DNA of 64,000 nucleotides, from NCBI GenBank assembly GCA_016842085.1, contig JAEVEX010000074.1:1-64000 (forward strand), written 5' to 3'. The first letter of the stretch is position 1. Each line of letters opens with the position of its first letter. Under the pieces are notes generated by a model that was given only the letters and a program-made list of their open reading frames with translations, was not told the origin of the DNA and ran no database searches. The position numbers were made by a program, and so were the translations under genes. Positions 8,665 to 39,706 of the stretch are shown piece by piece. The DNA comes from Candidatus Thermoflexus tengchongensis. GTDB taxonomy: Bacteria > Chloroflexota > Anaerolineae > Thermoflexales > Thermoflexaceae.

Positions 8665-8685
8665 CGCTGCCTCCTGAGCAGGGGT

Positions 8686-9471: not shown

Positions 9472-9837
9472 CCCGGCCTCCTGAGGGGATGTTCTCCTTA
9501 CCCGCCGTTCATAGATCCGGCAGACCCCTCGCCCCGGGAAGGGGCACCGAGAGCCCACCGCTGGGAACCATCCCGGTCGCCCCAGGAGGATTCCCCGAAA
9601 TTTCGCTTCTGGTTTTCATTTTAACTCGAGGCGATATCCGGCGGCAAGAGAGGGGGAGATTCTTCCTGGGCGAGAGACGAGGCATCCGTGCGCACCCGGA
9701 ATCCCGGGAGTCTGGGGGGTAGGGGAAGACATCCCGGTGTCCCTGAGGGGCCATCCAGCTTGTTGGCCCGGTGGGATCCGTTGCACAATAGCTGAGGTCA
9801 GCGGATGTTTGTCATCATCCCACGGAGGGAGGCATCG
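9472..9837. other. Divergent intergenic region between the DUF169 operon and fabI
   Basis: These 366 bases hold no convincing gene. A leftward promoter is visible near 9618-9647. For fabI, a weak rightward candidate is TTGTTG (9760) and CACAAT (9784), 18 bases apart. The ribosome binding site of fabI (GAGGGAGG) is just before 9838. I see no operator palindrome. Confidence 0.5.
9618..9647 (-). promoter_or_regulatory. Predicted promoter of the leftward 2-oxoacid dehydrogenase operon
   Basis: Reading leftward, TTGCCG (9642-9647) and TAAAAT (9618-9623) are separated by 18 bases, matching the -35 and -10 consensus at 4 and 5 positions. The spot is AT-rich within GC-rich flanks. It would leave a 5' leader of about 140 bases before the DUF169 start at 9471. 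Confidence 0.55.
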
Positions 9838-10638: not shown

Positions 10639-10665
10639 ATCCTGCTTGCCGCGGAGGAAGACGCC

Positions 10666-11004
10666 ATGGGGTTCTGGAAACGCCGCGCGTTCAACCAGCC
10701 GGAGGAAGCCCTGACGCCGGAGGCGCAGCGCCAGCGCCTCTGGGAGCGGGCGATGCAACGTCTTCAGCCCACCCTGCCTCCGGACTCCCCTTCATGGATC
10801 CTGGACGAGGCCTTTGATCTCCAGAACCGCCTGGTCTGGTTCGATGTGGTGATGCGGGTCGGCCCGCACTGGGCGAAGCGGCGCTACCGTTACGATGAGG
10901 AGGTCGACGTGCTCTATTTCAGCGGCGAGGTTCCTTTCCCCGAGACGGAACTGGATCGACTTCCCCCGGAGCGCATGGTCTGGCCGGGTCATCCGCTCTT
11001 GTAG
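10666..11004 (+). CDS. Small protein of unknown function
   Basis: This 112-residue soluble, charged protein begins MGFWKRRAFNQPEEA. It contains a central FDLQNRLVWFDVVMRVG stretch and a Tyr/Asp-rich segment (RYRYDEEVDVLYFSGE). I do not recognise a family. It has no signal peptide or membrane helix. It follows fabI closely in the same direction. Its stop codon lies inside a perfect inverted repeat (11001-11028) that may end transcription. Confidence 0.7.
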   Translation: MGFWKRRAFNQPEEALTPEAQRQRLWERAMQRLQPTLPPDSPSWILDEAFDLQNRLVWFDVVMRVGPHWAKRRYRYDEEVDVLYFSGEVPFPETELDRLPPERMVWPGHPLL

Positions 11005-18793: not shown

Positions 18794-20137
18794 ATGGAGC
18801 GACGAGCGGATTTGATTCCGGTGGTTCTGATCACCAGTGATCCGGAGTGGGAGAGAGGTATCCGGGAGTTTCTGGTGAACAGCGGGCGAGTGCACCTCGC
18901 CCGGGTTTTCCAGAATCCGGAGCAGGCGATTCAGTTGCTGCCGCATGTGCGGCCGGCTCCTGAGATCATTCTGATCACAGAGAACGCCGGCGGAGTCCCC
19001 GAGCTGAGCACATGCAGACAGATCTCCCAGCTGATGCCCCATGTAGCGGTGATCCTCGTGGTGAGCGAGGCCCTCTTCGATGACCCGCGCTACCTCCGTA
19101 GCGCTATGGCTTCAGGGGCTGATGATGTGCTCCGCATCACCCGCCCCATGCGATTCCAGGGCTGGATCGAGTCCATGGAGCGGGTGCGGGATCTGCTGCG
19201 GGCCCGTGCTGTAGCAACCCGGCGGGAGACCGGGCGGGTGGTGGCGGTGTTCAGCCTGAAAGGGGGTGTCGGCAAAACCACGCTGGCTCTGGGTCTGGCG
19301 GATCGCCTGGCGGGCATGTCGGAATCCTCCCGGGTGGTCTATGTGGACATGAACTGGCATGCCGGGATGACAGAGACCCTTACGGGGCATCCTTCCTCCC
19401 GCTCCTGGCTGGAGAGCCTGGACTTTCAGCAGTGGTCTCCCGCAATCGTGGACGCGCTGATCACCCGGGCCCGGGATACGTTGCGTTTCGATATCCTTGC
19501 TGCCCCACGGGAGGAGGATCATCGGGGAATGCTCAGGGACCTTCTCCTGCTCAACCGGCTGCCTCCCGAAGAGGCCCCGGAGCTGGAGCGTCTGGCCCGT
19601 GTTCTTTCCGACGGACGTCCCATCGAGGATGAGATCCTCCAGGATGTGGCCCGGCGGTGCATCCAGCACGCCCGGGTTGAGCACGCCCTGGCCACAGCCC
19701 TTCATCACCTGCTGATCAACCTGCGGGCTTACTATCAGTATGTGGTTCTGGACCTCCCACCGGCAGCGGATTTCCTGACCATGCTGGCGCTGCAGCGAGC
19801 CGACCGAATTCTGATCATCCTCACTCCGGACCTGGCGGCTCTGCGAGCAGCTCATCTGGCTATCGATTTGCTGCAATGGGGCGCGGTGCCCGGAGAGATC
19901 GGCGTGGTGCTGAATCGGGCCACCCGCCGCAGTGAGATCCGTCCGGATACGCTCCAGCGGCTTCTGAAGGGGATCAGCTGGCTGGCGGCCATCCCGGAGG
20001 ATCCCTGGATGACCAACGATCGGGCGCCGGCGGATGTGTTGAGGCGGCCCGGCCTGCTGGAGGCCATTGGCCGGGTGGCTGCTCAGATGTTCCCCGTCGC
20101 CCAGGAAGCGGCAAGATCCGGGCGGGATGCCCGATAA
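18794..20137 (+). CDS. cpaE: CpaE/TadZ pilus localisation ATPase
   Basis: This 447-residue protein has a receiver-like N-terminal domain (residues 8-120). A MinD/ParA-type ATPase domain follows, with the deviant Walker A KGGVGKTT at 156-163 and YVDMNWHAG as the switch I region. The strand before the second switch reads YVVLDLPP. TadZ/CpaE proteins place the Tad machine in the cell and recruit TadA. The receiver-like part lacks a clear phospho-aspartate pocket, as is usual for TadZ. An atypically long insert of about 100 residues (220-315) sits inside the ATPase. It is in line with the genes on both sides. Confidence 0.85.
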   Translation: MERRADLIPVVLITSDPEWERGIREFLVNSGRVHLARVFQNPEQAIQLLPHVRPAPEIILITENAGGVPELSTCRQISQLMPHVAVILVVSEALFDDPRYLRSAMASGADDVLRITRPMRFQGWIESMERVRDLLRARAVATRRETGRVVAVFSLKGGVGKTTLALGLADRLAGMSESSRVVYVDMNWHAGMTETLTGHPSSRSWLESLDFQQWSPAIVDALITRARDTLRFDILAAPREEDHRGMLRDLLLLNRLPPEEAPELERLARVLSDGRPIEDEILQDVARRCIQHARVEHALATALHHLLINLRAYYQYVVLDLPPAADFLTMLALQRADRILIILTPDLAALRAAHLAIDLLQWGAVPGEIGVVLNRATRRSEIRPDTLQRLLKGISWLAAIPEDPWMTNDRAPADVLRRPGLLEAIGRVAAQMFPVAQEAARSGRDAR

Positions 20138-20172: not shown

Positions 20173-21651
20173 ATGAGAACGCGACGGCGCATTGGAGCTT
20201 ATCGGATCGAACAGGAAATCCATCAGGGAAAGCTCGGGATCCTGTATCGGGTTCGCGATGAACAGGGAACGCCACGGGCGTTAAAGGTCATCCATGCTTT
20301 CCTCATCCAGGATCGCGATCGGCTGGAGCAGGCACTGAGGGATCTGGTGACCTGTCTGCGGCCCCTTGCTCATCCCTATCTGGTATCTCCGCTTGATACA
20401 GGCTACGATCCCGATGAGGATGTTGTCTATATCGTTTACCCATGGATCGACCGGGCAACATCCCTGGACGGAATCCTGCAACAGGAGGGCGGGCGCCTGC
20501 CCTTCAGCCGGGTGGCCGAGTATCTCTGGCGGGCCATGCTGGCGCTTCGGGCGCTGAGCCAGACCCTGGGGATCCACGGCTCCCTGAAGCTAACCAACAT
20601 GGTCCGGGATGCCAGAGGGTGGTTTTATGTGACGGATCCCGGCCTGGCTCGCGCAGTGTATCGCACTCAGCCTGGGGTCAGCCCGTGGGATGCCCTTGGG
20701 ACCTCGGATTATCTGGCCCCAGAACTCCTGGAGGGGCGGGAAGTAGGCTTTGCTACGGATCTCTATGCTCTGGCGGCCATTGCCTATCATCTCCTGGAGG
20801 GCCGTCCGCTCTTTACCTACGACGATCCGGCCCGTCGACGCGAGGCCCATCGCACCCAGCCTCCTCCCCCATTGCAGCGTTCTGATGTGCCTCCATCTTT
20901 CCAGCGCTGGCTTTTGCAATCTCTCTCCAAAGATCCCCGCGCTCGCTTTCAGGATCCGGATGCCGCTCTGGAAGCCCTGGCGGCGATCATGCTGGAGCGT
21001 GGCTGGGCGCTGGATTTCTGGCGCGCCGAGGCGCAGGCGCTCCTGGAGTTTCCAGCGCTGGACCTCGCCGCGGAGCATGTCGATCGTATCCTCCAGCGCC
21101 AGCCCAACCATCCGGAAGCATTGATGTTAAAGGGGGAGATCGAAAAAGCCCGTCTCCAGCAGGAGATCGCCCAGCGGCTGGAGCAGGCTCGCCGGTTTCT
21201 GGAGGAGGGGCATCCGGGAGCGGCCCGGGAGCCCATCCAGTGGATCCTGGAGCGCGCTCCTCAGCATTCGGAGGCCCTCACGCTTCTCGATCAGCTGGAG
21301 AAGATCCTGTCCTCGCCTCCCGTTCTAGTGCTGCGGACGGCTCGAGGACGGGTGTTCCGGCTGGAACGGGAAGGGATCCTGGGGCGTTCCAGCCGGGAGG
21401 GTTTCTGCCCGGAGGTGGATCTGGGGCCGGAAGACACGGGGCGTTATGTCTCCCGTCGCCATGCCCGCCTGTGGTGGGAGAAAGGCGCCTGGTGGATCCA
21501 GATCTTCCCCGAGACGGTCAACACGACATGGATGGACGGCGTTCCGATGGATCGGGGCCGGCCCTATCCGCTCCATGAGGGGGTTCGGCTGCGCATCGGG
21601 GATATGGAACTGCAGGTGGCCTTTGAATATCCGAAACGGGGGGATCCATGA
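20173..21651 (+). CDS. Pseudokinase with C-terminal FHA domain
   Basis: The 492-residue protein has a protein-kinase fold at residues 1-265. It keeps the ATP-site lysine (ALKVI, K38) and the later helices (DLYALAAIAYHLLEGRPLF). The catalytic loop HRD is replaced by HGS (135-137) and the DFG motif by DPG (155-157), and the glycine loop is degenerate. It is therefore expected to be inactive or scaffold-like. A helical TPR-like part (285-365) follows. A forkhead-associated domain at about 370-485 (GRSSREGF, RYVSRRHARL) would bind phosphothreonine. The gene overlaps the next by four bases (ATGA), indicating coupling. No membrane segment is visible. Confidence 0.8.
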   Translation: MRTRRRIGAYRIEQEIHQGKLGILYRVRDEQGTPRALKVIHAFLIQDRDRLEQALRDLVTCLRPLAHPYLVSPLDTGYDPDEDVVYIVYPWIDRATSLDGILQQEGGRLPFSRVAEYLWRAMLALRALSQTLGIHGSLKLTNMVRDARGWFYVTDPGLARAVYRTQPGVSPWDALGTSDYLAPELLEGREVGFATDLYALAAIAYHLLEGRPLFTYDDPARRREAHRTQPPPPLQRSDVPPSFQRWLLQSLSKDPRARFQDPDAALEALAAIMLERGWALDFWRAEAQALLEFPALDLAAEHVDRILQRQPNHPEALMLKGEIEKARLQQEIAQRLEQARRFLEEGHPGAAREPIQWILERAPQHSEALTLLDQLEKILSSPPVLVLRTARGRVFRLEREGILGRSSREGFCPEVDLGPEDTGRYVSRRHARLWWEKGAWWIQIFPETVNTTWMDGVPMDRGRPYPLHEGVRLRIGDMELQVAFEYPKRGDP

Positions 21652-23648
21652 AGCGGATGCGCCGGTTGTGGATGGTTTTCATCCTGCCCCTGATCTCTCT
21701 GGGGGGGCTGGGCCTGTTGCTGGATCCCGGGGCTCCGGCCGCTTCGGCTCAGGGTGGCCTCCTGAAGGCGCAGCCCCTCGGCGTGGACATCACCCGTTTT
21801 CCCACGGTGACGGTCTTCTTTCAGCTGGTGGATCTCTCACAAGGGTTGCCTGCCACCCAGCAGGTGGAGGTCCGATCCGTGCGGGAGGATGGCCAGGAGA
21901 TCCCGTCGGGCGAATGGAAGCTTGATCTGGAGGATCGGGGGGCAGATATTGTGGTCCTCCTGGATGCCAGCCAGAGCATCATCAGCCCCCAATCCCGGGG
22001 CTACACGGGGGACTCCCGTCTGAACGAGGCCCGGGAATTTGTCTCCAGGGTGGCCCAGGGCAAGACCGGGTCTTCCCGGATGGTGCTGATCGCCCCGGTT
22101 AGCGATCGGATCGATTTCATTGGCCCCCGGCAATTAACGAACAATGGCGGGGAAGTCTCGAACGCTCTACAACAATTCCAGTTCCCTTCTCGCCCGAAGG
22201 GGAAGGAGGCCACGCCTCTCTTCGATCTGCTTAGCCGTGCTGTGGAGATCCTGACGCAGCGGCCAGACGCTATGGGCCGTCCCGGAATGGTGATCGTATT
22301 GTCGGACGGCATCGATTTCCTGAGCGATCAGCAGGTCGTCGATGTCACCGGACGTGCCATGAATCACCATATCGTGGTCCATGCCGTTCAGATCGGGCCG
22401 GCCCAGGGCAGGGGCAGCGAGCGGGCCATGGAGAACCTGCGTCGCATCGCCGGGCAGACCGGCGGGCAGGTTCTGATTTTCGGCCGGAGCGATCTGGAGC
22501 CCTTTTATCAATCCCTCAAGGCGTGGGCCAAGGTTCAGACCCTGCACTACCGTTCCCGGGTCCGTCAGAGCGGGACGCACCAGATCGATCTGCAGATGGC
22601 TTCCGGCGGGCAACCCCTGGGCGTTTCGGCCAGCTATGCGATCCATCTGAGCCCGCCTCAGGTCGAGCTGGATTGGGAGGGCCGTTCCGAGGGTCGGGGA
22701 GGGGAGAGTTCCCCCATCCAGGTGAGCGAGACGCCTTCCCTTCCGCTCACGATCCGTATCCGATGGACGGATTCGTATGCACATGGGAGCGTGGCGATCC
22801 GTCAGGTTCGGATTGGGGAGAGCGTGGCAGGTTTTGAGAGGACCAGCGATCGGGTGGAGGAGGGTGTTGTCATCGTGGAGGGCATCGTGGACCTGAGTCA
22901 GGCCCCCCAGGGCATCTATCCGCTCCGGGTCGACGTGGAGGATGGCCTGGGGCTATCTGGCACAGGAGAAGGCCCGCTGATCCGTCAGCGGATCGTGCCC
23001 CCATCGCCGGCCGGGCGAGGATTGCTCGACGTCCTGCCGCTGGCTTCATGCGGGGTTGCTCTGGTCGCCCTGATGGTGGCGGCCATCGCCATCGCCCGGG
23101 TGCCTCGCCTCCGGGAGGCCGCCGTCTCCATGACCCAGCCCGTCGTCCAGCGGATCAAGGAGGTCACCGAACCTTTCTTCCCATCGGGAGCCGCCCGGGG
23201 TCCAGAGCCGGCTCGAGCCTGGCTGGTCGTGGTGGAAGGGGAGGCGGAGCGGCGCACCATCCCGATCCGCAGCACGCACGTTCGTCTGGGGAGGGATGAA
23301 ACCCTGGCCAATATCACCTTCACCGATCGTTCGGTCTCCCGTTTGCACTGCCGGATTGAGGAGGTGGAGGAGGGCGTCTTCTGGATCTATGATGAGGGGA
23401 GCACCAGCGGAACGTATGTGAATTATGAGCAGGTGCCCATCAATGGCGCTCGACTTCAGGACGGGGATCTGATCAACCTGGGCCGGGTGCAATTGCACTT
23501 CCGGCTGCGGCTGGATCAGCAGGAGATCCGTCCGCCCGGGCCTGTCTCGAAGCCGGAGGAGAAGAAAACCCAGGACGAGGACAAAACCCAGCCGTTGCGG
23601 GAGGTGGATGATCGAACCCAGGTTTTCCATGAGCCCGGCGCTGGGTGA
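21648..23648 (+). CDS. Membrane protein with extracellular VWA domain and cytoplasmic FHA domain
   Basis: The 666-residue protein has a signal peptide (1-35) and a von Willebrand factor A domain starting near residue 98. The metal-site motif DASQS is at 106-110. Beta-rich segments follow, then a membrane helix at about 459-485. A cytoplasmic FHA domain occupies about 545-620 (LGRDETLANI, SRLHCRI, GTYVNYE), and the tail is Lys/Glu/Thr-rich. It could sense an extracellular ligand or pilus component and bind a phosphothreonine protein inside. Its neighbours are a pseudokinase-FHA and a true Ser/Thr kinase. TadG proteins of other Tad systems also carry VWA domains, so a role analogous to TadG is possible. 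Confidence 0.8.
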   Translation: MKRMRRLWMVFILPLISLGGLGLLLDPGAPAASAQGGLLKAQPLGVDITRFPTVTVFFQLVDLSQGLPATQQVEVRSVREDGQEIPSGEWKLDLEDRGADIVVLLDASQSIISPQSRGYTGDSRLNEAREFVSRVAQGKTGSSRMVLIAPVSDRIDFIGPRQLTNNGGEVSNALQQFQFPSRPKGKEATPLFDLLSRAVEILTQRPDAMGRPGMVIVLSDGIDFLSDQQVVDVTGRAMNHHIVVHAVQIGPAQGRGSERAMENLRRIAGQTGGQVLIFGRSDLEPFYQSLKAWAKVQTLHYRSRVRQSGTHQIDLQMASGGQPLGVSASYAIHLSPPQVELDWEGRSEGRGGESSPIQVSETPSLPLTIRIRWTDSYAHGSVAIRQVRIGESVAGFERTSDRVEEGVVIVEGIVDLSQAPQGIYPLRVDVEDGLGLSGTGEGPLIRQRIVPPSPAGRGLLDVLPLASCGVALVALMVAAIAIARVPRLREAAVSMTQPVVQRIKEVTEPFFPSGAARGPEPARAWLVVVEGEAERRTIPIRSTHVRLGRDETLANITFTDRSVSRLHCRIEEVEEGVFWIYDEGSTSGTYVNYEQVPINGARLQDGDLINLGRVQLHFRLRLDQQEIRPPGPVSKPEEKKTQDEDKTQPLREVDDRTQVFHEPGAG

Positions 23649-23713
23649 GCGGCCCGGCGGGCTTCCCAGGACGCGCATCCGGGCTTTCCGCGAATCCGAC
23701 CACGGAGGTGAAG

Positions 23714-24985
23714 ATGCAAAGCGGTTCTCTGTCGCGCATCGATCATTTCGAGATCGAGCGCCCTCTCCATGAAGGAGGGATGGGGATCCTGTATCTGGCC
23801 CGCGATACCCGGCGGGGCGCGTGGGTGGTCCTCAAGGTTTCCCGACAGGTGAAGCCCCGTGCCGATCACGATCGGGAGCGCACAGCCGCCGAACAGGCTT
23901 TCTACGAAGAGGCGCTCCAGGCAGAGGTGGAGGTCCTGCGGGATCTCCATCATCCTCATATCGTGCGGTTGTATCCTCTGGAGGAAGGACCTCGGGCGAT
24001 TTACAGCAAGAGAGCTCCGAATGGCTCCTGGTATTTCGCCATGGAGCGGCTGGAAGGGGGCAGCCTGGAGGAGCTGCTCAAACGGCATCCCCGCCTGCCC
24101 ATCGAGGTGGCGGTGGAGATCGCCTACCAGGTGGCGATGGCTCTGGAGTATCTCCACGCCCGCGGGATCGCCCACCGGGATATCAAACCGAATAATATCC
24201 TGTTCCGACGGCCGGTCCGGGAGGGGATCGAGGCCGTGCTCGTGGATTTCGGCCTCGCCCAGCGCCAGCGGGCCCGGGGGCTGGAGGCGGGGACCCTGCT
24301 CTACATGGCCCCGGAGCAAATCGAGCAGGAAAAGGGAGGAACGGCCCGGCCGGATCCGCGGCCGGCGGATATTTATGCCCTGGGGGTGGTGCTGTATCGA
24401 ATGGTGACCGGCCGCCTGCCTTTCGAGGGGCGGGATCGGGACCAGCTGACCAGTGCGATCCGCAAGAGCATGCCGACCCGTCCATCGGTCCTCCGGAAGG
24501 AGATCCCGGCCCCACTGGATGATCTGATCGCCGAGATGCTGGCCAAGGATCCCGAGCGACGGCCGACGGCCTCCCTGGTGGCCCGCCGATTGAACGAGGC
24601 GGTGCCATGGCACCGTCGCTTCATTGAAGAGGAGGGGGATCTCTCCCCTCGGGGCCCCACCCCGTCCAGGCCAGCCGCCTCATCCTCCGGTTTCTCTCCG
24701 GTGTGGGGATTCATCACCCTGGCCCTGCTGGTTCTGGCGGTGGCGGGCTGGGGCCTGTATCTCAGCGGTGGGCAGGGCATTCGCCTCTCCGAACCCACGG
24801 TCACGCCGACTCCCGTGGTGCGTGTAAGCCCTACCCCTTTGATCGTGACGGGGGGAGGGCAGGGGACGATGCCCACTCCAACGATCTCCATCCCATCGGG
24901 GCCCACCTCCACGCCGATTCCGAGCCCCACACGCCTGCCCACACCCACACCGCTTCCAGTATCCACACCTTTGCCGACGCCATGA
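23714..24985 (+). CDS. Membrane-anchored serine/threonine protein kinase
   Basis: This is a 423-residue Hanks-type kinase. The ATP lysine is K41 (VVLKVS), the catalytic loop HRDIKPNN is near 154-161, and DFG is near 178. The APE-like helix reads YMAPEQIEQEK. A membrane helix at about 330-352 leads to an extracellular tail rich in Thr and Pro with no obvious ligand domain. It is expected to phosphorylate threonines recognised by the neighbouring FHA domains, with the PP2C next door reversing this. The start at 23714 has GGAGGTGA five bases before it, and the longer frame upstream has none. Confidence 0.88.
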   Translation: MQSGSLSRIDHFEIERPLHEGGMGILYLARDTRRGAWVVLKVSRQVKPRADHDRERTAAEQAFYEEALQAEVEVLRDLHHPHIVRLYPLEEGPRAIYSKRAPNGSWYFAMERLEGGSLEELLKRHPRLPIEVAVEIAYQVAMALEYLHARGIAHRDIKPNNILFRRPVREGIEAVLVDFGLAQRQRARGLEAGTLLYMAPEQIEQEKGGTARPDPRPADIYALGVVLYRMVTGRLPFEGRDRDQLTSAIRKSMPTRPSVLRKEIPAPLDDLIAEMLAKDPERRPTASLVARRLNEAVPWHRRFIEEEGDLSPRGPTPSRPAASSSGFSPVWGFITLALLVLAVAGWGLYLSGGQGIRLSEPTVTPTPVVRVSPTPLIVTGGGQGTMPTPTISIPSGPTSTPIPSPTRLPTPTPLPVSTPLPTP

Positions 24986-25048
24986 AAACCCCAATCTCCC
25001 TTCGAGCCAGGCGAAGGGTACGCCTGCATAGGGGAAAGGAGGTTCAGG

Positions 25049-26335
25049 ATGGCGGTTCGCACCCGTCCGAAGGCCCCAGAGGCCAGGAAGACCCAGTATC
25101 CCCGCCGGGTTCCTTCCGATGCCCAGGCCCCCCGGTTGTTTCAGGAGACCCACCCGGGAATGAGCGGGAAGAATAATGAGGACGCCGTGGAGACCGGAGT
25201 GATTCCGGGCCCGAATGGACGGCCGCGTTATGTGGCGATCGTGGCCGATGGCATCGGCGGCCACGCCTCCGGCGAGGTGGCCAGCCACCTGGCCCTCCGC
25301 CATGTGATGGAGTTCCTGAACCAGCATCCAGCGGCTCCCCTGCCCCAGGCTCTGGTTCAGGCGGTGACCCAGGCCAACCGGGCGGTGTTTGCCGAGAGCC
25401 AGAAGAAGGAGCTCTGGAAGGGCATGGGCACCACGCTGACCATCGCGGTGGTGGAGGATGGCCGTCTGTATCTGGCTCACGTGGGCGACTCCCGGGCCTA
25501 CCTCATCCGGGGGGAACGGATCGTGCAGCTGACGGTGGACCACACATGGGCTCAGGAAGCCATTGAGGCCGGCCGGCTGACCCCGGAGGAGGCTCGCACC
25601 CATCCCAATCGGAACGTCCTGAAACGCTATGTGGGCATCCAGCCGGAGGTGGAAGTGGATCTTCGGATCGCGCCGCCGAACGGGGATGGTCCCCCGGATC
25701 CCTGCTATCAGCCCCTCGCCCTTCAGCCGGGCGATGTGGTCCTGCTGTGCACCGATGGGCTTCATGATCTGATCTCCGACGAGCGGATCCTGGAGATCGT
25801 CCGCACCCATCCCGGGGATCAGGCGGTGAAGGCCCTGGTGGCGGCGGCCAATGCGGCGGGTGGTCCGGACAACATCTCGGTCGCCATGATCGAGATGCCG
25901 GGGCGCAAAATCGCGCGTCCTCCCCTCCGGCTTTCTCCGCCTCCCCTGACGCTCCCGATGGCGGCGGGTGCCCTTGTCCTCGGTCTGGGTCTGATCCTGG
26001 CCTGGGCCTGGCTCTTCCGGGGAGGGTCAGGGGAGGAGGATGCCGGCGGATTTCGCCGTTCCCGTTCTGGAACGCCGATCGTCATCCAGGGCGGAGGGGC
26101 GACTTCCCATGCTCCGGTGATCGGTCCATCCGGGGAGCCGACCTCTACGCCCGTGCCCACTCTGACCCCATCGCCGACTCCAACCCCCCGGCCCTCGCCG
26201 ACCTTCACCCGCATCCCCACGCCCACGTCGACCTTTACACCGACGCCTTCTCCGATGCCATCGGGTGGTGGCGGCGGTGGAGGTGGTGGGGGTGGTGGAG
26301 GTGGAGGAAATCCCACCCCTTCCATTGGACCATAG
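25049..26335 (+). CDS. PP2C-type protein phosphatase with membrane anchor
   Basis: The 428-residue protein has a PP2C catalytic domain at about 30-285. The metal-binding motifs DGIGGH (67-72), GDSRAYL (near 147) and DGLHD, and a C-terminal GGPDNIS, are all present. A membrane helix lies at about 304-324. A Thr/Pro-rich stalk follows, and a run of glycines sits near the C-terminus. It is the natural partner of the kinase just upstream, removing phosphate from Ser/Thr. AAGGAGG precedes the start. The stalk architecture matches that of the kinase, so both probably sit in the same membrane assembly. Confidence 0.88.
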   Translation: MAVRTRPKAPEARKTQYPRRVPSDAQAPRLFQETHPGMSGKNNEDAVETGVIPGPNGRPRYVAIVADGIGGHASGEVASHLALRHVMEFLNQHPAAPLPQALVQAVTQANRAVFAESQKKELWKGMGTTLTIAVVEDGRLYLAHVGDSRAYLIRGERIVQLTVDHTWAQEAIEAGRLTPEEARTHPNRNVLKRYVGIQPEVEVDLRIAPPNGDGPPDPCYQPLALQPGDVVLLCTDGLHDLISDERILEIVRTHPGDQAVKALVAAANAAGGPDNISVAMIEMPGRKIARPPLRLSPPPLTLPMAAGALVLGLGLILAWAWLFRGGSGEEDAGGFRRSRSGTPIVIQGGGATSHAPVIGPSGEPTSTPVPTLTPSPTPTPRPSPTFTRIPTPTSTFTPTPSPMPSGGGGGGGGGGGGGGGNPTPSIGP

Positions 26336-28681: not shown

Positions 28682-31186
28682 ATGGCGGTCCTGGAGCGAC
28701 TGGAAGCCGCGCGGCGGGGGGATGGCACCCGGACGGAGGAGCGATCCTCCCTGCGGGCCCTGGCCAAGCACTATCGGCGGCGCCTGATGGAAGAAGGGGA
28801 CCTGGGGACATTGCTTCAGCTCCCCCGTTCTCTCCTCCGGGCCCGCCTGGAGGCGATGCTGGCCCAGATGATCCGCGAGGAGGGGGAGATCCTCTCCCCC
28901 TCCCTCCAGGGGGAAATCGTCAACCTGATCCTGGATGAAACCGTCGGCCTCGGCCCTCTGGAGCCCCTGCTTCGTGATCCCCAGATTACGGAGATCATGG
29001 TCAACTGGCGGGCGCGGCCGGGAGAGGAGGGACGGGCCGAGGTGTTCGTGGAGCGCTTCGGCCGTCTGGAGCGCCGGGAGGATGTGGAGTTCGAAAGCCG
29101 GGAGCACCTGCTCCACATCATCGACCGGATCCTCTCCCCGCTGGGGCGGCGCCTCGACGAGAGCAACCCCCGGGTGGATGCCCGGCTGGCCGACGGGAGT
29201 CGGGTGGCGGCTGCCATTCCCCCCATCGCCGTGGATGGCCCGGTCCTGAGCATCCGGCGCTTCCGGGAGCGGCCGTTCACCATGGAGGATCTCATCGCCA
29301 ACGGCACCCTCACTGAGACCATGGCCGCTTTCCTGAAGGCCGCCGTGCGGGCCCGCCTGAATATCCTGGTCTCTGGGGGGACCGGGTCTGGCAAGACCAC
29401 GCTCCTCAACGTGCTGGCCGGCTTTATCCCACCCGAACAGCGGGTGATCACCATTGAGGATATCGCGGAACTGCGCTTCTATGAACAGCACCCCCACGTG
29501 GTGCGCCTGGAGGCTCGCCCTCCGAATGTGGAAGGAAAGGGCGAGATCACCATCCGGGATCTGGTGCGCCTTTCCCTGCGCATGCGGCCGGATCGGATCG
29601 TGGTGGGGGAGGTCCGGGGCGGTGAGGCCCTGGATATGCTCCAGGCGATGAACACCGGCCATGAGGGATCCATGACCACGGTGCATGCGAACTCTCCCCA
29701 GGAGGCCTTTTCCCGGCTGGAGACGATGGTCATGTGGGCGGAGGCGGCCCAGCAGCTCTCCCTGCGGGCGATCCGGGAGCAGCTGGCCACCATCGATCTG
29801 GTGGTCCAGATGGCCCGCCTGCCGGGCGGCGAGCGCAAGGTGGTGACCATCACCGAGGTCCAGGGATTGAAGGGGGATCAGCTGATCCTCAAGGATCTGT
29901 TCGTCTACTATCAGCTCGGCGTCGATGAGATGGGGCGGGCCTACGGATATTTCACCCCCACGGGGGTGCGACCGCGCAGCCTGGCCCGCATGCGCCGCTG
30001 GGTGGATCCCGCAGAAGTCGATCGGATCGAGGCGGCCCTGCGGGTGGATCCCCTGGAGGGGCGCCTGCCTCCCGATGTGCTGCGGGATCCTTCGGTCACC
30101 GAGATCATGATCAACGGCCCCCGCCAGGTGTTTGTGGAGCGTCGGGGCCAGCTGCAACCGGTCTCTCCGGATCGTCTGAACATCCGGGACGAGCTGCAGC
30201 TGATGGAGATGGCGGCGGTGATGGCCGCCCATGCCGGCCGGCGCATCGATGAGAAACGCCCTCTGGTGGACGCCCGGCTGCCGGATGGAAGCCGGGTGAA
30301 CATTGTGCTGCCGCCTCTCTCCCTCAATGGGCCGGTGATCACCATCCGCCGGTTCCGCAAGGAGCTGATCCACCCCGAGGATCTCATCCGTCGGGCCTCT
30401 CTGGAACGCCGGATGGCCATCTTCCTGCGGCGGGCCGTGCAGGCCCGGCTGAACATCCTGGTCATCGGCGGCACCGGCAGCGGGAAGACCACCCTGCTCA
30501 ACCTGCTGGCCTCTTATATTCCAGAGGAGGAGCGATTGATCACCATCGAGGACACCGCGGAGCTCCGCCTGAACCGGCCCCACTGGGTTCGCCTGGAGAC
30601 CCGTTCGGCGGATGAATTCGGGGAAGGGGAAGTCACCATCCGGGATCTGGTGATCAACGCGTTGCGGATGCGACCGGACCGGATCATTGTGGGGGAGGTG
30701 CGCGGGGGCGAGGCCCTGGATATGATCCAGGCCATCAACACGGGCCATCAGGGCTCCATGACCACCCTGCACGCCAACTCGCCGGAGGACGCCTTCGCCC
30801 GGCTGGAGACGATGCTGCGGATGGCCCGGGAGGGGGCCGATCTCCCGGAGGCCGCCCTCCGGCGCCTGATCTGCGCCTTTAATCTGGTGGTCCAGGTGGC
30901 CCGCCTCATCGATGGCACCCGCAAGGTGATCCGGATCGACGAGGTGGTGGGCGTGCAGGAGGGCCTGATCCGCACGGAGCCGATTTACACGTTCCGCCCG
31001 GCCGGAACCGCGGAGGATGAGGAAACGGTGCGAGGATATTTCATGGCGACCGGGTATCGCCCGGCCCTCTGCCTGCGGCGCTTTGAGGAACACGGAGTGA
31101 CCTGGTCACCCGATCTGTTCGATCCCAATCCACGGATCTGGGTGGAGGGCGAACGCTGGATCCAGGCACCGGAAGAGGGAGCCTGA
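28682..31186 (+). CDS. tadA: Tandem double TadA/CpaF pilus assembly ATPase
   Basis: TadA is the secretion ATPase that drives Flp pilus assembly. At 834 residues this is about twice the usual size and contains two complete copies. Copy one has Walker [13 protein letters not shown] near 233-244. Copy two repeats it near 596-607. Both keep the Asp box (TIEDIAEL and TIEDTAEL), the Walker B region ([18 protein letters not shown] and its twin) and the His box ([10 protein letters not shown] and [10 protein letters not shown]). Each copy also has its own N-terminal domain segment (EIMVNW and EIMING). All catalytic residues appear intact in both, so this is a true fusion and not a decayed duplicate. 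GGAGGA precedes the start. The flp-type fusion gene at 31285 follows. Confidence 0.9.
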
Positions 31187-31284: not shown

Positions 31285-32499
31285 ATGGAAGAAGAGATGA
31301 AAGAAAGGAAAAGCAGGTGGCTGGAAGAGAGGGGGCTTCAGACGCTGGAGTGGGTGGCGATCGGGCTGGTGATCCTGGCCCTGATGGGGGCGGTGGCCTT
31401 CTGGATCACGTATCGAGCTTCGGAGTCGACCGGGCGGACAGTCGGGGAGACGATCGCGCATTTCTTTGAGTGCGTGAAGCGGATGGACCTTGACTGTGTC
31501 CGGGAGGGATTTGGGAGCGCCGGGCAGCCCCAGGCCCGTCGGGATCTGGGATGGTGTTTGACCCATCCCCTGGACTGCTGGCGGGAGGTGGTGTGGCCGG
31601 GGATTCAACGGGGGGCCAGGGCGTTCTGGGAGGGCGTGAAGTGGGTGAGGCGTCAGATCGCGGAGGCCGGACGGCAGGCATGGGCGTGGATAGGTCGGCA
31701 ATGGAATACATGGCTGAAAGGGGCCGTGGCCGGGTTGCTGGCGGCGATCGTGGTGATTGGCCTGATCGCTCTGGCAGTTTTGGGCGGATTGATCACGTTG
31801 CCTGTTGCTGTGATTGCCGCGATTCTGGTGCTGGTGACTACAATTGGGGTGGGGATCTGGCAGCAGATGCAGGGCAAGGGGTTCTGGGAATGCTTTAGCT
31901 TCGCCCTGATGGTGGGATTCCTGGTAGCTGGATTTGTGATCAGTCTCTCGGTGGCTCTGGCAGGTGGATGGGCGGGAATCACGAATTGGTTACTCGGTGC
32001 TCTCCGAAATTCCGTTATTGCTACTTTTTTCAATTTAACAATGAAACCCGAGATGATCGCTCAAGCATTCAAAGGAGATCAGAGTGTTCTACAGGAAATT
32101 GGTTTAATGTTCGCTTCCAATTTGCTTGTATCTCTATGTACCTTTGGATTCATGCAAGGGTTCAAAGCCAAACTTCCAGCGTTTAAAGGAAAGCCAGTCA
32201 ATTTAAATATCCTTATTAACCGAATTAAATGGACTTTTTCGACTCCGATAACAAGACAACTGTTTTTCTCTGTTATTTCGGTTATATCAGTGAACATCTT
32301 TGGATCTTATGCACAATCAAGGATGATGGGAAAGGATTTTGATCTTGGAGAAAGCTTGATAACCAGTGTGTTTATCCTTCCGATTGCCATTGGATTGGAC
32401 ACGACTGGGTGGAACAAGTGGGTTGTAGATTCAATTAAGACTGTTTCCAAATGGGCTATTAAAAATTTGTATAAGAATTCATTGGGAGGCAATAAATGA
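31285..32499 (+). CDS. Flp-prepilin fusion protein 1 (large variable C-terminus)
   Basis: This 404-residue protein has a Flp-type leader ending in G17, with LQTLEW after it (Glu at +5) and a membrane helix at about 24-43. The family signature follows: C63 to C71, then C91-LT-HP-LD-C98. A charged amphipathic linker (100-150) and a hydrophobic region (about 155-230) come next. Last is a mainly aliphatic C-terminal 180 residues with no recognised fold. The gene's base composition changes inside it: a 60-base sample is 67% GC at 31321 but 42% at 32041 and 35% at 32221. The last four bases (ATGA) start the next gene. TadV should process the leader. The C-terminal part may be an effector, an adhesive tip or a structural domain; I cannot tell. 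Confidence 0.7.
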   Translation: MEEEMKERKSRWLEERGLQTLEWVAIGLVILALMGAVAFWITYRASESTGRTVGETIAHFFECVKRMDLDCVREGFGSAGQPQARRDLGWCLTHPLDCWREVVWPGIQRGARAFWEGVKWVRRQIAEAGRQAWAWIGRQWNTWLKGAVAGLLAAIVVIGLIALAVLGGLITLPVAVIAAILVLVTTIGVGIWQQMQGKGFWECFSFALMVGFLVAGFVISLSVALAGGWAGITNWLLGALRNSVIATFFNLTMKPEMIAQAFKGDQSVLQEIGLMFASNLLVSLCTFGFMQGFKAKLPAFKGKPVNLNILINRIKWTFSTPITRQLFFSVISVISVNIFGSYAQSRMMGKDFDLGESLITSVFILPIAIGLDTTGWNKWVVDSIKTVSKWAIKNLYKNSLGGNK

Positions 32500-33350: not shown

Positions 33351-35318
33351 TTGCCTCTCCGTCGTCTCATCCAGATCCTTCCCTGTCTCGCGCTGGGGAT
33401 GCTGATCGTTCGCATCCATCCCGCTCCTGCCCTTGCGCAGGGGAGGGGCGATGCGGTGGACGTGGTGGTCGTGGCCGATCGCTCCGGCCGCGCGCCGGAT
33501 CCCGGGCTTCGCGACGCGATGGGGGATTTGCTGACCCTATGGGGCGCCACGGCCGCCCCCCAGGATCGGCTGTTCCTGTTGCGAGGCGGGCCCTTCCCCC
33601 GGATGATGGGGGAGGTTTTCTCCATGCGGGATGCGGAGGATCGGGTCGCCTTCCAGAGGATGCTTGCTCGCCTGGGCGGATTTGATCGAGGGGATGCCCG
33701 CTGGCCCTCGATCGCCCAGCTGGCGGTCCGCAGCTTGAGCAGACTTCCGGACCCCGCGCCTTCCAGCGGTTTGCTCGCGCTGGCTCGCGCCGATCCGGCG
33801 GATCCGGAGGTCCTGTCGTCGGCCGCCGCCTCTCTGGCAGGCCCACCCGCTCGCCCGTTCTTCGCGCTCTCGCTGGAGCAGAGTCTGGGCCGCCTGGACG
33901 CCACGCTGGCGAAAGCCTCCGGCGGCGTCGCGGCCATGGCCCCGCTGGATGAAGGACGTTACCCGGCGGCCCTCCGCCTCTGGGGGGCGCTCTCCCCCTA
34001 TCGCTGGACAACCTGGCTGGTGCTCCCTCCCGGGCTGGAGCAGCGCCTGGAGTTGCCCCCCGACACCGTCTGGGCCGCCTTTGTCCTCGTCCGTCCGTCT
34101 CCTTCCATCCGTCTGGTGAACCTGATCCATGAGGGCACGGACTGGCTGGGCCCCGCCGCTCAGGCGCGCATCCATCGGGTTTCCACCGATCGCCTGGAGA
34201 TCGTTACCCTGTTGACGTTCGGATCTTATGAGGGGGAGTGGCGCATCCGGTCGGAGGGAGAGCGGGAGGCCGGATTGGGCGTGGTGGTCAGTGTAAGAAG
34301 CCCCCTGCTTCCCCAGGAGCCGGCTCCAGCCCGTCGGTGGACGGTCCCTGCCGGCGCGCCTCTCTTCCTGGAGGCGATCGTCCCTCGCTGGCCGCCGGAC
34401 GCTGCCCTGGAGTGGCAGGCCGGGGATCTTCGGATCCCTCTGCGGGACGATGGGGGAGAAGCCGATCGGGAGGCGGGAGACGGGCGGGCCAGTGGCCTGT
34501 TCGATCCGGGCACCCTCTCCGGACGGGTGGAGGGGGCTTTCCGTTTGAGCTGGAAGGGAGGGATCTGGGAGCAGCCGGCATGGCTGGATCTGGAGCCGGA
34601 CCTCCCGATCCTGAAGGCTCAGGTTCCGATCTCCCCCACACCGGGCATGCCCATCACCATCACCGTGGATCGCCCGGACGGGGTGGAAACGGTGAGCTGG
34701 CGCTGGGCCGGATGGCGGCTGGGAAGCGCTCGTTATCAGCCTCCGGAGGCGGCGATCGCCGCTGAGTCGGGCTGGCAATGGACGTTCCGGACGCCAACGG
34801 GGGGGAAGGTCCGCTTCCTGGCCCTGGGGGAGGTGCGGACATCGACGGCGCGGGTCTATCCGCAGGCGGTCGTGGTGGATCTGGCGGTGGTCGCTCCCAC
34901 GGAGGGCCGTCTGTTCGTGACCATGGAGAAACGGCCGCAGCGCCTGACCCTGCCGGGGGAGCTCACCCTCGTGATCACCTCCACCCTGGATCGTCCCGCC
35001 CAGCTCCGCCTGGAGGTCGTGGAGGGGAAGGATCGGGTGCAGGTTATCCCCGCCCTGGTCCCGGTTCCTGCCCGGGAGGTGATCCGCCGGAAGATCCAGG
35101 TGCGCGGGGAGGGGATTTCGGATTCCCAGTCCATTCGGATCCGGGCGCGAGAGGAGAAAGGCGCCCCGGTGGAAGGGGGCGATCTCTCCCTTACGGTGAC
35201 CTCCGGTGGGGGAGGCGGGTTCTCGCCGGCCTGGCTCTGTCTGACTGCTGCGGTGGGGGCGGGCGGCTTTTTGCTCCTCCGGATCCTGATGCGGCGCTCA
35301 CGGGAGCGATGGCCATGA
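33351..35318 (+). CDS. Large extracytoplasmic protein with C-terminal membrane anchor (degenerate VWA-like start)
   Basis: The 655-residue protein has a signal peptide (residues 1-29, ending ALA-Q). A segment resembling the first strand of a VWA domain follows (VDVVVVADRSGR, with the MIDAS only partly conserved). Long beta-rich regions and a C-terminal membrane helix (about 628-648) complete it, leaving a short cytoplasmic RRSRERWP tail. It overlaps tadB by four bases (ATGA), so it belongs to the pilus operon. The start is a TTG with GGAGG five bases upstream. It may be an anchored assembly or TadG-like factor. A decayed piece of a related gene lies near 46.9-47.1 kb. Confidence 0.65.
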   Translation: MPLRRLIQILPCLALGMLIVRIHPAPALAQGRGDAVDVVVVADRSGRAPDPGLRDAMGDLLTLWGATAAPQDRLFLLRGGPFPRMMGEVFSMRDAEDRVAFQRMLARLGGFDRGDARWPSIAQLAVRSLSRLPDPAPSSGLLALARADPADPEVLSSAAASLAGPPARPFFALSLEQSLGRLDATLAKASGGVAAMAPLDEGRYPAALRLWGALSPYRWTTWLVLPPGLEQRLELPPDTVWAAFVLVRPSPSIRLVNLIHEGTDWLGPAAQARIHRVSTDRLEIVTLLTFGSYEGEWRIRSEGEREAGLGVVVSVRSPLLPQEPAPARRWTVPAGAPLFLEAIVPRWPPDAALEWQAGDLRIPLRDDGGEADREAGDGRASGLFDPGTLSGRVEGAFRLSWKGGIWEQPAWLDLEPDLPILKAQVPISPTPGMPITITVDRPDGVETVSWRWAGWRLGSARYQPPEAAIAAESGWQWTFRTPTGGKVRFLALGEVRTSTARVYPQAVVVDLAVVAPTEGRLFVTMEKRPQRLTLPGELTLVITSTLDRPAQLRLEVVEGKDRVQVIPALVPVPAREVIRRKIQVRGEGISDSQSIRIRAREEKGAPVEGGDLSLTVTSGGGGGFSPAWLCLTAAVGAGGFLLLRILMRRSRERWP

Positions 35319-36265
35319 CGGGGGCGGTGCAGGGCATCGGATATCTGGTCGGGTTGCTCCTGACCGGCATCCTGGCGGGCCTGGCGGTGGGGGCCCATCT
35401 GGTGCATTACCTGGAGCGCCGGGAGATCAGCGGCCGTGCTCAATCTCTGGTGGCTCGCTCCGCAGAGGCCCGCAGCTTCCTGCTGGATCTGGGGGCGCGT
35501 TTCGACGCCAGCCCACGGGGCCAACGGCTGGCCCGGCAGCTGGAGGCCGCGGACCTCTCGTTGCGGCCTCATGAGCTGCTGGCCCTTCAGGGGTTTGCGG
35601 TGTTCGTGGCCTTCTACCTGAACGCCCTGTTTCTTCACCTGGACCCCTTCCTGATCCTTTCCCTGGCGCTATTCGGCGTGCGCTTCGCGACCGGTCGCTA
35701 CCTGGCCCATCGAGCCCGACGCCGGGCGCTGCGCTTCGCCGAGCAGCTCCCGGAGGTGGCCGATACCCTGGCCCGGGGGCTGGGGGCCGGGCAGACGATT
35801 GTCCAGGCCATCGGGGAGGCGGCCGGCCGTCTCCCCCCGCCGGCTGCCGGAGCCCTCCGGCGGGTCTACCAGCAGCTTCTGCTGGGATACTCGCTGGGGG
35901 AGGCGCTTGAGCATCTCTATCAGCTCTATCCTTCCCCGGACCTGGAGCTGATGATCACCGCCATCCTGGCCCAGCAGCGGGCGGGCGGGAATCTGGCGCG
36001 GGTGCTGCAGCGCCTGGCGATCACAATGGCCGAACGCCGGAGCATGCAGCGGGAGATCCGCGCCCTCACCGAGGAGCCCCGCTTCAGCGCGATCCTGGTG
36101 ATCGCCCTTCCCCTCGCTTTCCTGCTCCTCTTTCGAACCATCATGCCGGGAATGGTGGATGCGCTGATCACCCAGCCCCTGGGCTGGGTCATCCTGGGGA
36201 TCAGCCTGGCCATGCAGATCGGGGGATTCCTGTTGATCCGTCGCATCACCCGGGTGGAGGTATGA
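35315..36265 (+). CDS. tadB: TadB-type pilus assembly membrane protein
   Basis: This 316-residue protein has an N-terminal helix, a central T2SSF (GspF) domain, and the characteristic motif LPEVADTLARGLGAGQTIVQAI (about 148-170). C-terminal membrane helices span 255-305. TadB forms the inner-membrane platform with TadC, above the TadA ATPase. The ATG at 35315 overlaps the upstream stop (ATGA). An ATG at 35309 in the same frame is an alternative. tadC follows after four bases. Confidence 0.9.
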   Translation: MTGAVQGIGYLVGLLLTGILAGLAVGAHLVHYLERREISGRAQSLVARSAEARSFLLDLGARFDASPRGQRLARQLEAADLSLRPHELLALQGFAVFVAFYLNALFLHLDPFLILSLALFGVRFATGRYLAHRARRRALRFAEQLPEVADTLARGLGAGQTIVQAIGEAAGRLPPPAAGALRRVYQQLLLGYSLGEALEHLYQLYPSPDLELMITAILAQQRAGGNLARVLQRLAITMAERRSMQREIRALTEEPRFSAILVIALPLAFLLLFRTIMPGMVDALITQPLGWVILGISLAMQIGGFLLIRRITRVEV

Positions 36266-36269: not shown

Positions 36270-37172
36270 TTGCTGGAGCTGTGGGCCTGCATGGGTTTGC
36301 TCACCGTGACCCTGGCCGCGGCCGCGGTCTGGCACTGGTCTGTTCCCTCGGAGACCCGGCTGCGTCTGGAACGGACTTACCCTATGGGGATCAGTGGTCC
36401 GTCTTTCTCGGAGCGCATCCACCGCTGGTCCCTCCGGCTGGCCCGCGAGGTCCCGGCGTTCTGGAGCCTGCTAGGGCGGGAACGCCTCGCCCGCACCCTG
36501 ACTCAGGCCGGACATCCCTACGGGTTGACGGTGGAGGCCTTCTACGGGATGCATATCCTGGGCGGCCTCGCCGGCGCTGCCCTGGGGGCTTTTCTCTATC
36601 TGATGGACATCCTGCTGGGCTTCGGCGGCTGCATGCTCATCTTCGCCGTTCTGTCCGTGGCCGGAGGATTTCTCGCCCCCACGTTCTGGATGAACCGCCT
36701 GATGGAGCGGCGTCAGAAACAGATCGATCTGGCCGTTCCAGATTTCCTCGACACTCTGGCGGTGTTGCTGGAAGCCGGCCTTGCTTTCGAGGCGGCGCTG
36801 CGTCACCTGGCCGACCGGCTGCGGAACCCTCTGGGGGAGGAGTTGCGCCGCTTCCTCCAGGAGCTGGAGATGGGGGTTCCGCGAATGGAAGCCTATCGGG
36901 GGCTGGTGGAACGTAACAGCGCCCCCGCTCTGCGGATCTGGGTGGAGGCGATGATGCAGGCCGAACGCCTGGGCCAGCCCCTCACGCCCACCGTCACCCG
37001 GATCGCCGCTGATATGCGCGCTCGCCGCATCCAGAAGGCCCGCGAATGGGTCGGCCGGGTGGGTCCGGTGGCTTCCATGCTGGTGGCCCTCATTATCGGG
37101 CCCGCTGTGATGTGCATGCTGGCCGGCGGCCTGATCCTTCAGCTTCTCGGCCAGGGGCTCGTCCCCCGTTAA
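36270..37172 (+). CDS. tadC: TadC-type pilus assembly membrane protein
   Basis: This 300-residue protein contains a T2SSF domain with the family core VPDFLDTLAVLLEAGLAFEAALRHLA (about 155-180). Membrane helices lie near 5-22, 95-135 and 275-295. It pairs with TadB in the inner-membrane platform. The start is a TTG with GGAGG about ten bases upstream; an in-frame ATG at 36291 is the alternative. It is directly behind tadB, and the WD40-type protein follows after 26 bases. Confidence 0.88.
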   Translation: MLELWACMGLLTVTLAAAAVWHWSVPSETRLRLERTYPMGISGPSFSERIHRWSLRLAREVPAFWSLLGRERLARTLTQAGHPYGLTVEAFYGMHILGGLAGAALGAFLYLMDILLGFGGCMLIFAVLSVAGGFLAPTFWMNRLMERRQKQIDLAVPDFLDTLAVLLEAGLAFEAALRHLADRLRNPLGEELRRFLQELEMGVPRMEAYRGLVERNSAPALRIWVEAMMQAERLGQPLTPTVTRIAADMRARRIQKAREWVGRVGPVASMLVALIIGPAVMCMLAGGLILQLLGQGLVPR

Positions 37173-37198
37173 GGAAGGTTTCCTCCAGGAGAATTGAG

Positions 37199-39706
37199 AT
37201 GGAGCCGCATGGGGAAGGAGACGCCCCGGAGATCCTCGCCCGCAGCCTGGAGCGGGCCCGCCGCTGGGAAGATGCGGGGCTCTGGGAGGAGGCCGCGCAG
37301 ATCTATGCCTGGCTCATGGAACGCTTCCCGGAGGCCCCGGAACGGTCCCAATGGGAGGCGGGCTATCAGCGATGCCGGAAGAGGCTCCAGCTGGAGGCGG
37401 ATTGGACGGCCGCGGAGGAAGCAGATCGGGCCGGCGATTGGGAAGCCGCACGGGCAGCCCTCCGTCGTATCGTGGAGCAGGATCCGGAGTTCCAGAGGGG
37501 GGGACGCGTAGCCCACGTCTGGCTGGAGGATCTGGAACGGAAGCGGGCGGCCCGTCAGAGACGTTACCGGGCCTTCACCGCCGTCTTCGGATTCGTCCTG
37601 GCCGCGCTGGGGTGCGGAGCCGGGATCGCCCTGGCCGCCTTCGTCTGGCACAGCGCGGCGGGCCTCTTCCCCAGCATGCCCTCCCCAGCCCCCACATCCC
37701 TCATTCTGGAAACACCCTCTCCCTCGCCTTCCCCTGTCCCACCGGCCGAAAACGAACCCCCGGTCTTCTCGCTCCCCGCGATGCCGTTGAGCGCTGCCCC
37801 TGAGCGCATCGCTGTTCTGGCTCGCTGGGGGACGGAAGGGGTTCCGGCCGGAGCGGCTCTCTCCCCCGATGGGCGCTGGATCGCCTTTCCCATCGGAAAT
37901 CGAGTGGAATGGCTCGAGGCCAGCACCCTCCGCCCCGTTCGCACCCTGGAGATCCCGGCGGCCGATTCCATCTCCCGCCTGGCCTTCTCCCCGGATGGCC
38001 GCTGGTTCGCGGTGGGGACGGAAGGGGGAAGGATCTATCTGGGCCCGGTCGCCGGGCAGGCGCTGGTCCACGCCCTGGCCCCGAAACGCCGTCAGGGGCT
38101 GGTGGAGAGCCTGGCGTTTTCCCCGGATTCCGCCTGGCTGGCGGCCGGGCAGCCGGGCGAGGTCGATCTCTGGGCAATCCCGGTTGCCTCTACGAGCTGG
38201 GAACTTCCCGCTTCCTCCACCATCACCCTGGAGACCACTCTCCGCATCTCGCTCTCATCCTTCCGGGTGATCTCTCTGGAACGGGATCCATCGCGCATCT
38301 TCGACCTGATGTTCGCGCCCGACGGAAGAACGCTCATCGCCGCGAGCGCGGCCGGCGCGATCCACTTTCTGGATCCCCGAACGGGATGGGAGATCCGCCG
38401 TCTGGAGCCGGGCGGGGCATGGGTGATCGCCCTGGCCCGAAGCCCGGACGGAGCCCTCATGGCGGCCGGGGACTCCGAGGGCCGGATCTCCATCTGGCGG
38501 CTGACGGACGGGACCATGATGGCGGTTCTTTCCGGCCATACTGGTGCGGTGACCACCCTGGCCTTCCTCCCGGATGGATCCGCTCTCCTCTCCGGAGGCA
38601 CGGATCGAACCCTTCGGGTGTGGTCTTTGAAAGATCGGACCGGGAAGGTATGGTATGAAGATCGGATCGCCTGGGTGGACCGCGTGGAGGTCACCACGGA
38701 TGGGCGGGTGATGGCCTCGTTCTCGGATGGACATCTGCGGATCTGGCGGTGGCCGGATGGACAACCGGAGCGGGAGATCCAGCGGCCCTCCGGCATGTAT
38801 CCCCGCGCCCTCGCGTTCGACCCCGCCGGACGCTGGCTGGCCGCCGGCTTCGCCGACGGCACCCTCCGGATCTGGCCCATCTCCTCCACCCGACCGCTTG
38901 CGACGTGGGGTGCCCATACGCTCTGGATCGATCGGATCGCTTTCCATCCGGAGGGCCAGTGGCTGGCCTCCACGGGCATGGATGGAAGGATCTATGTGTG
39001 GAGCCTTCCGGAAGGACGGCGGATCGCCGCCTTCGAGGGCGATCCGGGATGGCCTTCCGATCTGACCATCACCCCGGATGGGGAGTTTCTGATCGCCGGC
39101 GGTTATGATCTCCGGATCTACCGGTTCTCCCTCCGCACCGGAGAACGGGAGATGGTGGAGACCGGCTTTTTGAGGATCCAGGATGAGGCGGGGCGCCGGC
39201 TGAGCTATCCTCGGATCGCTGAGTTCGGGCTGCGCTCCCTGCTGGCCCTCAGCCCGGATGGGCAGCTCCTGGCTATGCTGATCCCGTTCGAAGGAGAGAT
39301 CGTGCTGGATTCGGCGGCGGCCTTCGGCCGCTCACCCCGGCGGTTTCAGATCTTCCCGGAATGGTCAGCCCCCGGGACGGCCATGGCGTTCAGCCCCGAT
39401 GGCCGGTGGCTGTTTGTGGGAACCCGGGCGGAGGTGGAGCGTTTCCCTATCCCCGAGGGTTCGCCAGCGGATCTGCTGATCCGTGAGCCGGTCCTCAGCA
39501 TGGCGATCTCCCGGCAGGGGGATCTTCTGGCCCTGGGAGGGTTCTCCGGGCGCATCGACCTGATCCGCCTTCCGGATGGCATGTGGGTCCGTACTCTGTA
39601 TGGACATCGAGGGGAACCTGTGATCGCCCTCGCCATCTCCCCCGATGGCCGGCTGCTGGCCTCGGGAGGGGAGGATGGAACCATCACCCTGTGGGGCGTG
39701 CGCTGA
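37199..39706 (+). CDS. Membrane protein with extracytoplasmic WD40-type propeller
   Basis: The 835-residue protein has an N-terminal helical, TPR-like cytoplasmic part (1-120), a membrane helix at about 125-148 and a short Pro/Ser-rich linker. About eleven blades of WD40-like repeats follow. Each is marked by the SPDGRW-type turn (for example FSPDGRWFAVGT, FLPDGSALLSGG, ISPDGRLLASGG). These propellers usually bind proteins or peptides. It lies between tadC and the two-component genes, so it could sense pilus status or a surface ligand. The start at 37199 has AGGAGA just before it. Confidence 0.8.
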   Translation: MEPHGEGDAPEILARSLERARRWEDAGLWEEAAQIYAWLMERFPEAPERSQWEAGYQRCRKRLQLEADWTAAEEADRAGDWEAARAALRRIVEQDPEFQRGGRVAHVWLEDLERKRAARQRRYRAFTAVFGFVLAALGCGAGIALAAFVWHSAAGLFPSMPSPAPTSLILETPSPSPSPVPPAENEPPVFSLPAMPLSAAPERIAVLARWGTEGVPAGAALSPDGRWIAFPIGNRVEWLEASTLRPVRTLEIPAADSISRLAFSPDGRWFAVGTEGGRIYLGPVAGQALVHALAPKRRQGLVESLAFSPDSAWLAAGQPGEVDLWAIPVASTSWELPASSTITLETTLRISLSSFRVISLERDPSRIFDLMFAPDGRTLIAASAAGAIHFLDPRTGWEIRRLEPGGAWVIALARSPDGALMAAGDSEGRISIWRLTDGTMMAVLSGHTGAVTTLAFLPDGSALLSGGTDRTLRVWSLKDRTGKVWYEDRIAWVDRVEVTTDGRVMASFSDGHLRIWRWPDGQPEREIQRPSGMYPRALAFDPAGRWLAAGFADGTLRIWPISSTRPLATWGAHTLWIDRIAFHPEGQWLASTGMDGRIYVWSLPEGRRIAAFEGDPGWPSDLTITPDGEFLIAGGYDLRIYRFSLRTGEREMVETGFLRIQDEAGRRLSYPRIAEFGLRSLLALSPDGQLLAMLIPFEGEIVLDSAAAFGRSPRRFQIFPEWSAPGTAMAFSPDGRWLFVGTRAEVERFPIPEGSPADLLIREPVLSMAISRQGDLLALGGFSGRIDLIRLPDGMWVRTLYGHRGEPVIALAISPDGRLLASGGEDGTITLWGVR

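Follow-up and report, generated by a model that had tools for sequence, protein, structure and literature searches.

The 64,000-nucleotide stretch of DNA analysed here, referred to as the window (positions 1 to 64,000 of contig JAEVEX010000074.1, Candidatus Thermoflexus tengchongensis), encodes a tandem ATPase in which two CpaF/TadA-type units are joined in one chain. On balance, we consider it probable that the Tad motor ATPase was doubled by one ancient fusion and that three of the resulting chains, each with a first (A) and a second (B) half, would make up one ring, in which each half would face a different platform subunit. The arrangement bears on how a six-part ATPase ring drives the three-fold TadB/TadC platform in Tad and related pili.

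Two CpaF-type ATPases in one reading frame

The gene is a single unbroken frame beginning with ATG, immediately preceded by the ribosome-binding-like gaggagg (Table 1), and the whole-genome search likewise placed both CpaF copies inside one open frame. Pfam T2SSE matches the protein twice. The best NCBIfam model is that of the TadA family ATPase, with 608.9 bits (both halves summed) and a cut-off of 373; the VirB11 and TrbB models also exceed their own cut-offs on the summed halves, with lower scores than TadA, and the FlaI model is not passed (369 bits, cut-off 550). Against Caulobacter crescentus CpaF, half A (residues 1-438) scores 351 bits and half B (residues 439-834) 310 bits, both far above VirB11 and FlaI. 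The first-pass annotation had described a tandem TadA/CpaF with two intact motif sets in one protein, and the single frame, the double T2SSE match and the retained residues bear this out. It had also given each half its own N-terminal segment, which is correct for the NTD, present in both halves, but not for the three-helix bundle: half A consists of the bundle, the NTD and the ATPase domain, and half B of the NTD and ATPase domain without the bundle, preceded by a linker of about 45 residues. In doubles with both landmarks matched, the landmark-to-landmark gap across this linker is 44-49 residues. With AlphaFold2 on 13 tandem proteins (mean pLDDT 82) both halves take the expected fold; with a pTM of 0.64, the monomer model does not fix the mutual placing of halves A and B. 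Structure comparison returned CpaF for half A (Z 36) and VirB11/PilT-type folds for half B.

Catalytic and arginine-finger roles were taken from two cryo-EM papers (PMC11300603, PMC12019362). Each of the 13 doubles has equivalents of K287, E312, R347, E357, R359, H382, R217 and R223 in its first as well as its second half, so that the kept set comprises the P-loop lysine, the Asp-box and Walker B glutamates, the His-box histidine and the arginine fingers R217, R223 and R347. A dead second half was rejected, the motifs of half B being intact, and both sites look active, with the same chemistry. The CpaF site is completed in trans by R347 from the adjacent subunit (PMC12019362), and each half should therefore need a neighbour. 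The earlier suggestion of two kinds of site thus stands in part: the platform contact surface differs between the halves, but the chemistry appears alike, with all catalytic residues kept.

Table 1. Features of the tandem CpaF gene, its neighbourhood and the triple CpaF genes (window positions unless a contig or residue numbers are given)
Feature	Position	Strand	Basis or remark
MinD/ParA-type ATPase, CpaE/TadZ-like	18794..20137	+	CpaE_hom model match below cut-off
Regulatory block: kinase-FHA, VWA-FHA, Ser/Thr kinase, PP2C phosphatase	20173..26335	+	
Tandem CpaF/TadA ATPase, 834 aa	28682..31186	+	frame, Pfam, NCBIfam, motifs
Walker A motifs	aa 232-240 and 596-604		
Asp boxes	E263 and E627		
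Walker B motifs	aa 309-313 and 671-675		
His boxes	H335 and H697		
N-terminal helical region (three-helix bundle), half A, sole copy	28739..28942	+	C. crescentus CpaF alignment from residue 89; model helices
NTD, half A	28943..29296	+	CpaF alignment, residue comparison, model; includes alpha5-equivalent helix ~29099-29134
ATPase domain, half A	29297..29962	+	motifs
Motifs, half A	Walker A 29375-29401; pore loop 29516-29545; Walker B 29606-29620; His box ~29678-29692	+	
Inter-half linker	29963..30091	+	landmark spacing, dN/dS
NTD, half B	30092..30388	+	includes diverged alpha5-equivalent ~30191-30226; no three-helix bundle before it
ATPase domain, half B	30389..31057	+	motifs
Motifs, half B	Walker A 30467-30493; altered pore loop with ADEFGEGE 30602-30631; Walker B 30692-30706	+	
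404-aa protein, putative giant pilin	31285..32499	+	sequence; Flp-like class III signal (RG/LQTLEWVAIGL...); no family match
VWA-like membrane-anchored protein	33351..35318	+	weak likeness to the VWA protein beside other tandem CpaFs; no Pfam match
TadB-like platform protein (T2SSF)	35360..36265	+	Pfam
TadC-like platform protein (T2SSF)	36270..37172	+	Pfam, relatives
Triple CpaF, G459 (f56), 1183 aa	L188:5712-9260	-	intact; three intact P-loops
Colinear triple CpaF, G455 (f56)	L191 ~7197-10735	-	broken by frameshifts

The platform-facing surface and the proposed ring

In Caulobacter, the CpaG/CpaH (TadB/TadC) platform is predicted to be a three-fold ring of heterodimers, with every CpaG or CpaH facing one CpaF, and an AlphaFold prediction has alpha5 (189-200), loop 8 (201-212) and the pore loop (325-337) of CpaF touching CpaG/CpaH (PMC12019362). 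Taking the interface positions from that work, we scored 11 first and 11 second halves for the sites that best separate them. Ten of the best 20 lie in alpha5, loop 8 or the pore loop, where 2.5 are expected (Fisher 1.8e-5; equalled by 1.3% of randomly slid windows in a sliding-window control, 0.013), the p-values being indicative, as we settled on the site score when the pore-loop difference was already known to us. Compared with ordinary CpaF, the second halves have 8 of 20 such sites at the platform surface (p 0.001), and the first halves 2 of 20 (p 0.73), with no concentration there. First halves have the pore-loop sequence N-V/L-E-G-x-G, where second halves mostly have D-E/R/Q-F/Y/D-G-E/D-G. 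By this comparison of sequences, the halves differ most at the published, predicted platform-contact surface. The B halves probably still contact the platform, since all but one of them retain D208 of loop 8.

We propose that an ancient tandem duplication with in-frame fusion would have yielded a permanently double Tad-pilus motor ATPase. Three double chains would close into a six-part CpaF-type ring with A and B halves alternating around it, each site taking its arginine finger from the adjacent half. The A halves, retaining the ancestral surface towards the platform, would face one of its subunits, and the B halves, whose surface is altered, would face the other; the motor would then have the same three-fold A/B symmetry as the TadB/TadC platform. 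A ring of three double subunits had been inferred in the first-pass annotation, and both the platform-facing divergence and the predicted three-fold platform lend it indirect support. A stricter version, in which A-B alternation is obligatory, each half is dedicated to one platform protein, the symmetry match is covalent and a ring of A-B-B chains consists of two such chains, is put forward tentatively. A natural double subunit of this kind would fix the A and B positions in the ring, so that single sites could be mutated at defined ring places without an engineered fusion, and a natural triple would offer a second ring geometry for comparison.

Alternatively, six chains could build two stacked rings in the manner of p97 and ClpB, with the A halves near the membrane and the B halves beneath. 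This would agree with the lack of the three-helix bundle in B, as the bundle sits on the platform side in CpaF, and with the retention in each half of all the residues that a homotypic ring needs. A lower ring would, however, be too far from the platform to touch it, whereas B has kept its loop-8 residues, its pore loop is conserved though different, and the divergence falls exactly at the platform surface; moreover, doubles and triples, 2 and 3 being divisors of 6, suit one six-part ring. We regard the stacked arrangement as unlikely, and it is the retained loop-8 residues that lead us to place the B half in the platform-facing ring and not in a remote second one. It is likewise improbable that a co-transcribed pair of paralogues was joined neutrally and forms an ordinary ring without division of labour. 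The two sites do look catalytically alike, and fusion could preserve stoichiometry without any further function; nevertheless, the tandem has been kept across several families and classes, its diagnostic A/B differences are conserved at one surface, and the linker is constrained.

The closest known system is CpaF/TadA of Tad (type IVc) pili, for example the CpaF of C. crescentus (PDB 9e24, 8rjf), which shares the sequence type, the fold, the catalytic and arginine-finger residues and the TadB/TadC neighbours. CpaF/TadA of these pili has one ATPase per chain and forms a homohexamer, whereas the window protein has two per chain; FlaI/ArlI and archaeal GspE2, single-motor systems of the same fold family, also have one. 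Among other motors, F1/V1-ATPase is a six-part ring of three unlike pairs, in which the alternate sites of F1 are non-catalytic, and p97 and ClpB are double-ring AAA+ proteins with two ATPase domains per chain. These belong to unrelated families and serve as analogies only; unlike in F1, both sites here look catalytic. A survey of 292 CpaF orthologues described three architectures, classes I-III, with the tandem absent (PMC12019362), and text searches of the open-access literature found no report of a tandem. The tandem represents a new architecture, one that derives from CpaF and falls outside these published classes, and CpaF architecture is accordingly less uniform than the three suggest.

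Origin, authenticity and spread of the tandem

The first-pass annotation had suggested a tree of the two halves. In our tree of 54 sequences, the first halves form a clade (UFBoot/SH-aLRT 100/93), as do the second halves (100/99), and the ordinary CpaFs, including the window genome's own, make up a third (94/78). Because first and second halves cluster separately, and apart from ordinary CpaF, the fusion most likely happened once, long ago. Branching order inside the two clades is largely concordant, with the same groups recovered in each (the window's genus with G678; G388, G471 and G459; G466 and G469; G668 and G616). Seven separate fusions, one per lineage, were rejected (delta lnL 207, p-AU 2.4e-4); a constraint keeping the halves of one lineage together was rejected in the case of the window's genus (p 0.032) and, taken singly, not in that of two others (p 0.19 and 0.098). 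A recent duplication inside the genus was also discarded, the window halves being just 53% identical and lying in distinct phylum-wide clades.

The same single-frame tandem was found in three of the nine genomes of the window's genus, the window's own included, the others being G004, a single 3.3-Mb contig (96% identity), and G002 (90%). No tandem was seen in the remaining six, one of which (G006) carries the cluster's TadC at 87% identity on a 3.6-kb contig, and its tandem gene may simply be absent from the assembly. Between the window and its two genus relatives, dN/dS is 0.04-0.07 in each half and 0-0.09 in the linker, a pattern indicating that each half, and the linker too, is under purifying selection. 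Most of the genomes compared are many-contig drafts and the G455 copy is frameshifted, but an artefact of assembly or sequencing, or a stop missed between two genes (an assembly error and a missed stop being what the first-pass annotation had named as its refutation), can be set aside at the window locus given the fused gene in the one-contig G004 and the low dN/dS, with the tandem recovered independently from many genomes and every intact copy lacking a stop between the halves.

Within Chloroflexota as GTDB defines it, the search for CpaF-CpaF fusions that had been recommended at the outset found the tandem in six further families and a triple in a seventh. Tandems occur in f35 (G678), f14 (G571) and f31 (G668, G616) of the window's class, and in f47 (G061, G073), f92 (G388, G471) and f95 (G466, G469) of other classes. 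The tandem is rare in class and phylum, being present in 7 of 396 genomes of the class sample, 5 of 400 of the phylum sample and, triples included, 6 of the 158 genomes from G388's class, frequencies that depend on thresholds and assembly gaps. Its spread may reflect either descent with losses or transfer. The triple, of the form A-B-B, occurs in two genera of f56 (Table 1); in the intact copy of G459, the tree assigns copies 2 and 3 both to the second type, and only there, in these two copies, is R217 missing. A 1217-aa open frame in G668 was at first taken as a triple and proved to be a double plus an open frame upstream. The G061 tandem is the same sequence as that of Chloroflexi bacterium NC_groundwater_1535, and G416, from the class of G388, is identical to Thermalbibacter longus, now placed under Thermomicrobiota at NCBI. 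Among the matches listed in a scan of genome contigs, NC_groundwater_1535 was the one named tandem and 79 other loci lacked tandem motifs, and the tandem may also occur in other phyla; on plasmids, the best 15 of 338 matches were single genes, each aligning to both halves.

Gene neighbourhood

In the window, the tandem CpaF is followed by the pilin-like protein of 404 aa, a protein of 105 aa, a VWA-like protein that has diverged, and then TadB and TadC, and thus adjoins a T2SSF pair. The order in most other lineages is the tandem, then a VWA protein, then T2SSF proteins, and in G571 TadB follows the tandem directly. A TadB-like gene lies near the tandem wherever the contig extends (those of G002 and G469 end earlier). 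On the short contigs of G388 and G459, TadB alone was seen, with no TadC-like gene found beside the tandem, and in G471 TadC stands apart on the opposite strand. Kinase, PP2C and VWA-FHA genes also adjoin the tandem in G004 and G668.

In G466, a separate diverged CpaF-like gene (L190:5930-7024, minus strand) separates the tandem CpaF from the VWA gene; it has GGTSTGKTT, and HAD in place of HAN. A second TadB/TadC pair of the window type, its TadC 76% identical, is present in the assembly on a short contig of 6930 bases (G000:C8, L232), on which no CpaF was found. Three window proteins of 335-404 aa (31285-32499, 44041-45048 and 53509-54663, all on the plus strand) have a common Flp-pilin-like start, G/[LV]QTLEWVA[IL][GA]L; they are far longer than Flp pilins, lack a family match and are putative giant pilins. 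The end of the Tad-like cluster is formed by a WD40 protein (37172-39706, plus strand) that has a predicted transmembrane segment and downstream of which lie a response regulator and then a histidine kinase.
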